A stretch of 44,886 nucleotides of DNA, taken from positions 1-44,886 of the forward strand of contig MCBE01000267.1 of assembly GCA_001723845.1 (NCBI GenBank), written 5' to 3'. The translations under genes were made by a program, and so were the position numbers. The notes beneath the pieces were generated by a model. That model was not told the DNA's origin and made no database searches. It worked only from the letters and a program-made list of their open reading frames with translations. Of the stretch, positions 39,521 to 41,015 are shown piece by piece. The stretch is from Candidatus Altarchaeales archaeon WOR_SM1_SCG (lineage in GTDB: Archaea; Altiarchaeota; Altiarchaeia; IMC4; WOR-SM1-SCG). Numbering within the stretch: position 1 is the first letter of the stretch; each line of letters starts with the position of its first letter.

Positions 39521-41015
39521 ATTCCAGTTGATCCTGCTGGAGGCTACTGCTATTGGGGTTCGACTAAGCCATGCGAGTCAAAGGGTTATGACAATAACAC
39601 TGGCGAAAGGCTCAGTAACACGTGGATAACTTGCCCTCGGAAGGAGTATAACCTCGGGAAACTGAGGCTAATACACCATAGGTGACAAGTACTGGAATGT
39701 CTGTCACTTAAAAGGGGCCGTTGTTATGTCCGACGGTCACCGTCTGAGGATAGGTCTGCGGCGGATTAGGTTGATGGCGAGGTAATGGCTCACCATGCCT
39801 GCGATCCGTACCGGCTATGAGAGTAGGAGCCGGGAGATGGGTACTGAGACACGGATCCGGGCCTTACGGGGTGCAGCAGGCGCGAAACCTCTACAATGCA
39901 CGAAAGTGTGATAGGGGAACCCCAAGTGCTTCTGTAAAACAGGAGCTTTTGTAGTGTGTAAAAAGCATTACGAATAAAGGCTGGGTAAGACCGGTGCCAG
40001 CCTCCGCGGTAATACCGGCAGCTTAAGTGGTAGTCGTTTATTGGGCTTAAAGCGTCCGTAGTCGGTTTGGCAAGTTCTCTGTGAAATCCTGCAGCTTAAC
40101 TGTAGGGCTTGCAGAGAATACTACCAGACTTGAGGTCGGGAAGGGTCAGGGGTATTCATGGGGTAGCGGTGAAATGTATTGATCCCATGAGGACCACCTG
40201 TGGCGAAGGCGCCTGACTGGAACGAGCCTGACGATGAGGGACGAAAGCTAGGGGAGCAAACCGGATCAGATACCCGGGTAGTCCTAGCCGTAAACGATGT
40301 GGCCTGAATGTTGCAGGAATCTTCGTGTTTCTGCAGTGTTGAAGGGAAACCGTTAAGGCCACCGCCTGGGGAGTATGGTCGCAAGTCTGAAACTTAAAGG
40401 AATTGGCGGGGGAACACCACAAGGGGTGGAGTCTGCGGTTTAATTGGATACAACGCCGAGCAACTTACCAGGGGCGACAGCAGAATGAAGGCCAGGTTGA
40501 AGATCTTGCCGGACGCGCTGAGAGGTAGTGCATGGCCGCCGTCAGCTCGTACTGTGAAGCGTGCGGTTAAGTCCGTTAACGAGCGAGACCCGTACCTCTA
40601 TTTGCAACCTATGTCTATCAGATATGGGGCACTATAGAGGGACCGCTGGCGATGAGTCAGAGGAAGGCGCGGGCTACGGTAGGTCTGTATGCTCCGAATC
40701 TCCTGGGCTACACGCGGACTACAATGGCGCAAACAACGGGATGCAACTCCGAAAGGAGCGAGCTAATCTCTTAAATTGCGTCCCAGTTCGGATTGTGGGC
40801 TGTAACTCGCCCACATGAAGCTGAAATCCCTAGTAATCGCTGGTCACTATCTAGCGGTGAATATGTCCCTGTTCCTTGCACACACCGCCCGTCAAACCAA
40901 TCGAGTGGGTCAGGGATGAGGCTCTCTCATACGGGAGAGTCGAATTCCAGGTCCGCAAGAGGGGTTAAGTCGTAACAAGGTATCCGTAGGGGAATCTGCG
41001 GATGGATCACCTCCA
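39521..41015 (+). rRNA. 16S ribosomal RNA
   Basis: About 1495 nt, from ATTCCAGTTGATCCTGCTGG to GGATCACCTCC. The first helix has covarying changes (CCAG with CTGG instead of CCGG with CCGG), showing that the divergence is real. Landmarks include AACTTAAAGGAATTGGCGGG and the 3' end GTCGTAACAAGG. Unusual bases occur at the 515 and 800 regions (see findings). Ends were set by comparison with archaeal 16S and may be off by a few bases. Confidence 0.97.

Follow-up and report, generated by a model that had tools for sequence, protein, structure and literature searches.

Bases 507 and 524 of 16S rRNA (E. coli numbering) close the third pair of the pseudoknot in the 530 loop, canonically C-G, and G is nearly universal at 524. 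The 16S gene studied here has T at both positions, which raises the questions of whether the mismatch is real, how widely it is shared, and how a decoding loop built in this way would hold together. The gene lies in a 44,886-nucleotide window, the whole stretch of DNA that we analysed, at whose end 16S, tRNA-Ala and 23S genes form an rRNA operon on the forward strand (Table 1). The first-pass annotation had placed T at 40003 and 39986 and numbered them 524 and 507; alignment with E. coli rrsH confirms the base calls, coordinates and numbering, and positions 39994–40012 read GTGCCAGCCTCCGCGGTAA. The U-U contact that it proposed is likewise real, the third pseudoknot pair of this 16S being U·U. 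Elsewhere in the window, a single open frame of 5438 amino acids (11703–28019) with CarboxypepD_reg, CARDB, MopE-like metal-binding, NosD/beta-helix and Big_9 domains perhaps encodes a giant surface protein.

Table 1. Positions in the window of the rRNA operon, the two pseudoknot strands and the primer sites.
Feature	Position	Strand	Match or remark
16S rRNA gene, archaeal, full length	39521..41015	+	RF01959, 1451.9 bits, model 1-1478 of 1478
5' primer region (helix 1)	39522..39541	+	compensated pair CCAG/CTGG
WORSM1-9f primer site	39524-39540	+	perfect match; letters from PMC4975002
530-loop pseudoknot, 5' strand	39984..39986	+	E. coli 505-507 = G-G-U, U507 at 39986; MAFFT alignment with E. 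coli rrsH
515F primer site	39994..40012	+	one mismatch, G->T at 40003, 10th base from primer 3' end
530-loop pseudoknot, 3' strand	40003..40005	+	E. coli 524-526 = U-C-C, U524 at 40003 (G is the rule)
806R primer site, ATCAGATACCCGGGTAGTCC	40265..40284	+	one mismatch, T->C at 40267 (E. coli 789), 3rd base from primer 3' end
WORSM1-1405r primer site	40891..40908	+	perfect match to reverse complement; letters from PMC4975002
tRNA-Ala (TGC), 16S-23S spacer	41175..41248	+	
23S rRNA gene, full length, archaeal	41421..44324	+	RF02540, 2664.3 bits

The assembly from which the window comes (G000; G numbers label genomes and L numbers fetched loci) is a draft of 2.55 Mb in 300 contigs, 74% complete, and in so fragmented a genome one could suspect that the assembly or a base call is wrong, or that the 16S is a pseudogene. 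A search of the whole assembly returned one SSU match, the 16S of the window. That match spans the full length of the covariance model (gathering score 50 bits), the gene sits in an operon with tRNA-Ala and 23S, and 16 genomes of the order share the base within differing flanking sequence, which argues against an assembly error. We give error or pseudogene practically no credence, and the gene is best explained as a functional rRNA gene, as judged from its sequence and setting.

The genome collection, whose own order label defines order membership here, contains 23 other genomes of the order and five of the same class outside it, with no second genome of the window's family. Eight of the order's 24 genomes have no SSU match; all of the other 16, spread over four families, have U524. 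Within the phylum the T524 pattern occurs in 16 of 29 genomes, every one in this order. In a broader set of 394 archaeal genomes the site was located in 201, and 524 was other than G in 16 of them, exactly the order's 16, while G was present in 185 of the 185 genomes with the site outside the order; the pattern used to recognise the site has no exact counterpart in the remaining 193 genomes, which are uninformative. This is the comparison with archaeal 16S sequences that had been proposed for the locus, and it upholds the near-universality of G524. The first-pass annotation was therefore right that this 16S departs from the rule and underestimated the departure, which is a trait of the whole order at a pair that covaries in other lineages. 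The concentration of U524 in the order is far beyond chance.

Base 507 is U in 14 of the 16 genomes and C in two (G001 and G009), giving 14 U·U and two C·U contacts; both C507 genomes belong to family f2, and either one change or two would account for them. To compare the surrounding gene we used 43 aligned rows, 15 from the order and 28 others, E. coli being among the 28 and excluded wherever 27 other archaea are counted. Left out of the alignment were a second 16S of G018, G047 (U507-G524, read separately), fragments from G034 and G048, and G007, the sixteenth genome of the order, whose 16S is in pieces and is also U·U when read separately. The 507–524 contact is U·U in 13 and C·U in two of the order's rows, against C-G in 20 and U-G in seven of the 27 other archaea, so that a standard pair is found in 0/15 and 27/27 respectively. 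Only at position 524 do all rows of the order share a base that no other row has (15 T against 28 G); no second column that might reflect compensation was diagnostic in the 43 rows, in a screen that takes in columns uniform within the order. Columns 1355 and 1367, mostly T/A in the order and mostly G/C in the others, were considered as compensation and rejected, as they look like an unrelated compensated pair. Identity to the window's 16S falls to 79.9% within the order (near-complete rows), and the U524 state is therefore probably old. No Watson-Crick pair has been restored at 507–524 in the 16 genomes, although a single change of 507 to A would suffice. The second 16S of G018 (L088, G018:C397:378-1845) is unrelated, has A507 opposite G524, and probably comes from a foreign or contaminating contig.

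Four genomes (G025–G028) are labelled as the same class and not the same order. The FISH probe for Ca. Altiarchaeum, SMARCH714 (letters from PMC8324899), has a perfect site in the 16S of G025 and G026 and a single mismatch in that of G027, and we therefore take their group to be Alti-1 (Ca. Altiarchaeum); against G000 the probe has at least six mismatches. The three Alti-1 genomes with a 16S all have C507-G524. Order and Alti-1 together form a clade in the 16S tree (96/100); the order is not separated from Alti-1 there, and order monophyly from 16S alone was dropped. Because the 16S groups with Alti-1 and both primers that Bird et al. designed for their study of Alti-2, WORSM1-9f and WORSM1-1405r (PMC4975002), match perfectly, the window's organism is most likely an altiarchaeal outside Ca. 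Altiarchaeum, of the Alti-2 group. These primers are weak as a clade test, with mismatches (9f and 1405r respectively) of 1 and 2 in Alti-1, 2 and 3 in G006, 2 and 5 in G018, and maxima of 3 and 5 among the other order rows.

To see how the pair behaves in other organisms, we searched 84,980 species, each represented by a single genome, for non-G524, requiring the flank TAATAC, and obtained 30 stretches; the scan cannot be used to count archaeal U524, because most of the order lacks TAATAC after the site. G507-C524 is present in 8/30 (Liptonbacteria, Sungiibacteriota, other Patescibacteria-type MAGs, one MAG titled 'bacterium', and Ca. Rehaiarchaeum) and U507-A524 in 5/30, in MAGs titled Woesearchaeota, Aenigmatarchaeota, archaeon or bacterium. 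C507 faces A524 in 13/30: four stretches from Clostridium manihotivorum CT4, eight from Paenibacillus P25 and one from a Clostridiales MAG (L062). Two contigs of Hydrogenophaga sp. Bet4 (L050 and L075) have C507 and U524, the same pair as G001 and G009. One further stretch (L059) resembles eukaryotic SSU rRNA around the site, and another (L072) does not look like SSU rRNA. In the CT4 (L048, L055, L069 and L074) and P25 (L051 and seven more) copies the site reads GTGCCAGCGACCGCGG, with AG swapped to GA at 523/524, which places C507 opposite A524.

Among the archaeal genomes, the phylum of G054, which we take to be DPANN with small genomes, has U507-A524 in four of 156, and the phylum of G038 shows none in 227, both denominators being all genomes rather than those with the site. 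The U507-G524 wobble seen in the alignment (7/27) is frequent among other archaea. In sum, several groups have another Watson-Crick pair at 507–524, and mismatches turn up here and there; the window's order is the one place where a pyrimidine-pyrimidine state was seen throughout a lineage. None of the titles in our literature coverage, which lies mostly outside subscription journals, suggests an earlier report of a 507–524 mismatch in Altiarchaeota.

Several of the 16S genes retrieved for these comparisons have insertions. That of G036 (L025, 16S at 1501–3064) has 44 nt in the 530 loop at 523/524 and a second insertion of 46 nt near 1091; these may be small BHB introns, the first of which would split the pseudoknot strand in the gene. 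Insertions that are possible introns are also present after about position 906 in G013, a member of the window's order (L021, 65 nt), after about 1205 in G058 (L085, 666 nt), and after about 791 in both G044 (L082, 118 nt) and G054 (L083, 57 nt).

Apart from the third contact, the pseudoknot of the order is conventional. In all 15 rows 505–526 and 506–525 are G-C, G521-C528 and C522-G527 are paired, and G530 is kept; A1492, A1493, C1054 and C1402 are kept in the 14 rows long enough to include them. Elsewhere in the 530 loop the only change is at 534, which is variable in other archaea too. The lower stem (500–504/541–545) was set aside, since archaea are one base shorter there and the column pairs appear to be off by one. 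In a crude hairpin calculation, the three-step helix came to -2.7 kcal/mol with C-G at the third step, -0.8 with U-G, and -0.5 with U-A; forcing U·U or C·U there gave +0.9, and leaving the third step open gave two-pair forms of +1.6 (U·U) and +2.7 (C·U) kcal/mol. Because non-standard pairs take default values in this calculation and the ribosome is absent from it, the result says only that the mismatch would be costly in isolation.

Published mutants indicate what such a mismatch may do. Single changes on either side of the E. coli pseudoknot are reported to cause severe growth defects that compensatory changes cure (Powers & Noller 1991, as described in PMC3900107), and RsuA binding to E. coli 5'-domain RNA improves more than 30-fold when the RNA has G505C or C507G, which the authors read as an unfolded pseudoknot (PMC7356742). 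On that reading of C507G in the isolated domain, the mismatch here need not be harmless. Both C507A and G524U in Thermus thermophilus 16S are reported to be streptomycin-dependent (PMC10525438); the G524U mutant is thus viable, with decoding altered. G·U pairs in the pseudoknot are said to be well tolerated in bacteria (PMC3900107), and with seven of 27 other archaea having U507-G524, that pair is a plausible intermediate step.

The reading that we favour, with moderate confidence, is that in this order, where U524 is fixed, the pseudoknot closes with a pyrimidine-pyrimidine third contact, for which uS12 might partly compensate. An ancestor of the order would have swapped the near-universal G524 for U, which all sampled descendants retain. 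The pseudoknot would still form, with a narrower contact, U·U or C·U, following its two G-C pairs, and would still present G530 to the decoding site; part of the cost of the mismatch might, more tentatively, be borne by uS12, in which Ser replaces Pro90 in most of the order. We would expect somewhat altered pseudoknot stability and decoding accuracy rather than loss of function. That none of the 16 genomes has A507 suggests that selection for a Watson-Crick pair here is slight.

The same bases might instead pair in another register, with 507 (U or C) bulged and A508 pairing with U524, to give three canonical pairs, G505-C526, G506-C525 and A508-U524. A508 is present in 15/15 order rows, and the variation of 507 between U and C while 524 stays U fits a base without a partner. 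However, A508 is equally present in 27/27 other archaea and so is no specific adaptation, 507 has never drifted to a purine in 16 members, and a bulge in a tight three-pair helix would distort it; we judge this shift unlikely. We think it similarly improbable that the third pair is simply dispensable and has decayed under relaxed constraint, with no compensation or functional meaning, as in many mitochondrial rRNAs, where weak pairing potential in the 530 pseudoknot is called common (PMC3382252). The lack of any other 16S column changed uniquely with 524 agrees with such decay, in that no rRNA compensation is visible, but decay would predict a mix of bases, and 524 is U in 16/16 genomes across the wide range of 16S identity given above; this constancy disfavours simple decay, as does a 530 loop otherwise unchanged apart from 534. 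A modified U507 or U524 (for example a pseudouridine or 2'-O-methyl uridine, sRNA-guided) might stabilise the U·U pair. Archaea do modify rRNA by guide RNAs, and a modified uridine would account for a U fixed at 524; against it, no known guide RNA family reaches its gathering score in the window, although guides need not adjoin their targets, and we consider this explanation very unlikely.

Since our preferred reading gives a part to uS12, which packs against the 530 loop, we compared 21 sequences of that protein from the 23 other order genomes and 29 from the 37 other matching genomes; the protein was not found in the window's own 74% complete draft. The motif is mostly GD[IL]SG[VI]R in the order and mostly GD[IL]PG[VI]R in the others, the differing residue being at the position of E. 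coli Pro90: Ser in 18, Pro in two and Gly in one of the 21 order sequences, against Pro in 27, Ser in one and Trp in one of the 29 others. The two changes are not tightly coupled. The sister genomes G013 (Pro) and G022 (Gly) have U·U without Ser90, G002, an order genome with no SSU match, has Pro, and the outgroup G040 has Ser90 with a normal C-G pair. Ser90 and U524 may each have arisen once, on a single branch, which leaves their association without statistical weight, and we regard a link between them as suggestive only. A rule that a 507–524 mismatch goes with a change of Pro90 was rejected, as Clostridium manihotivorum CT4, Paenibacillus P25 and Hydrogenophaga Bet4 keep Pro90 despite the mismatch. 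A second uS12 motif, PGDGAINF in other archaea, is altered in most genomes of the class, in both Alti-1 and the window's order (PGNKAITF, PRNRAITF), while G002 keeps PGDGAIGF.

Substitutions at S12 Pro90 are reported to affect streptomycin response in Thermus: P90A, P90C and P90G are resistant and P90E, P90M, P90R and P90W dependent, P90S being absent from the substitutions listed in that passage (PMC9456066). A bolder version of our preferred reading is that the whole order lives naturally in a decoding-centre state like that of the streptomycin-dependent G524U laboratory mutant, buffered by the change at uS12 Pro90. We think this possible though doubtful; if true, the order would have a naturally re-tuned accuracy centre in which the 530 loop is locked by a pyrimidine-pyrimidine rather than a Watson-Crick pair.

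A further claim of the first-pass annotation was that the 16S departs from universal primer sites and that amplicon surveys may miss the lineage. U524 does fall in the 515F/519 site: all 15 order rows differ from 515F-Y and the 519 core at a single base, 10 from the 3' end, and the three Alti-1 rows at none. One internal primer mismatch lowers, and seldom abolishes, amplification, so 'missed' is too strong, and it is fair to say that the order is perhaps under-counted. The mismatch in the 806R site also exists in the window and is private to its genome within the order, as 806RB is perfect in the 14 other order rows; each of the three Alti-1 rows has one mismatch, at the 11th base. At the 5' end, the window (39522–39541) has two mismatches, at 39526 and 39538, to archaeal 21F, and these two bases compensate each other as a pair in helix 1, which reads CCAG/CTGG in 10 and CGAG/CTCG in the other five of the 15 order rows. 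Fourteen order rows extend as far as the 926R and 1391R sites, and both primers are perfect in all of them; against the same 14, 1492R shows a single mismatch in 13 and two in G011. ARCH915 has one mismatch in G000, G003 and G008.

Whether the 5' region counts as divergent depends on the primer, since Bird et al. 2016 (PMC4975002) report that ARC-8F has no mismatch in Alti-2 and one in Alti-1; they also note an insertion where ARC-1492R binds. The same work had already published that primer mismatches probably masked Altiarchaeales, and a mismatch to common primers in this group is therefore already known. The forward primer of the 2026 V4-EXT set, GTGYCAGMMGBNKCGGTVA, keeps G at 524; V4-EXT is described as covering Altiarchaeota better than V4-CPR, and V4-EMP coverage of most lineages is called robust (PMC13271367). 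The single defined 515F/519 mismatch marks the order and is easily corrected.

We conclude that U524 breaks a near-universal pair of the decoding region, and that this departure is genuine, fixed in the lineage and probably old, with modest practical consequence and a testable link to uS12. A cellular order with a lasting mismatch in its decoding loop, and with the obvious one-base repair unused, is a natural experiment on the pairing that decoding needs; it offers a test of how rigid the decoding loop must be, and of how rRNA and uS12 share the load.

Several known systems bear comparison. The study of Bird et al. (PMC4975002) concerns the same phylum and raises the same survey concern, and its passages on the matter name ARC-8F and ARC-1492R rather than 515F or the pseudoknot. 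Relative to the canonical 530-loop pseudoknot of bacteria and archaea, the order keeps the helix, both G-C pairs and, 507 and 524 excepted, the loop sequence; what differs is the third pair, U·U or C·U where C-G is canonical. Among mitochondrial SSU rRNAs there are likewise departures from C-G at 507:524 and cases of weak pseudoknot pairing, although human 12S rRNA, with U and A at these positions (PMC3900107), keeps a Watson-Crick pair; those are organellar ribosomes, whereas the window's order consists of cellular archaea. G524 has also been lost naturally in the MAGs titled Aenigmatarchaeota and Woesearchaeota (U507-A524) and in the Liptonbacteria and Patescibacteria-type MAGs (G507-C524), but there Watson-Crick pairing is kept. 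The T. thermophilus G524U laboratory mutant has the same base change at 524, and its pair, if C507 is retained there, is the C507/U524 of G001 and G009; in the order, by contrast, U524 is natural, fixed and archaeal, and is found mostly with U507 and mostly with uS12 Ser90.
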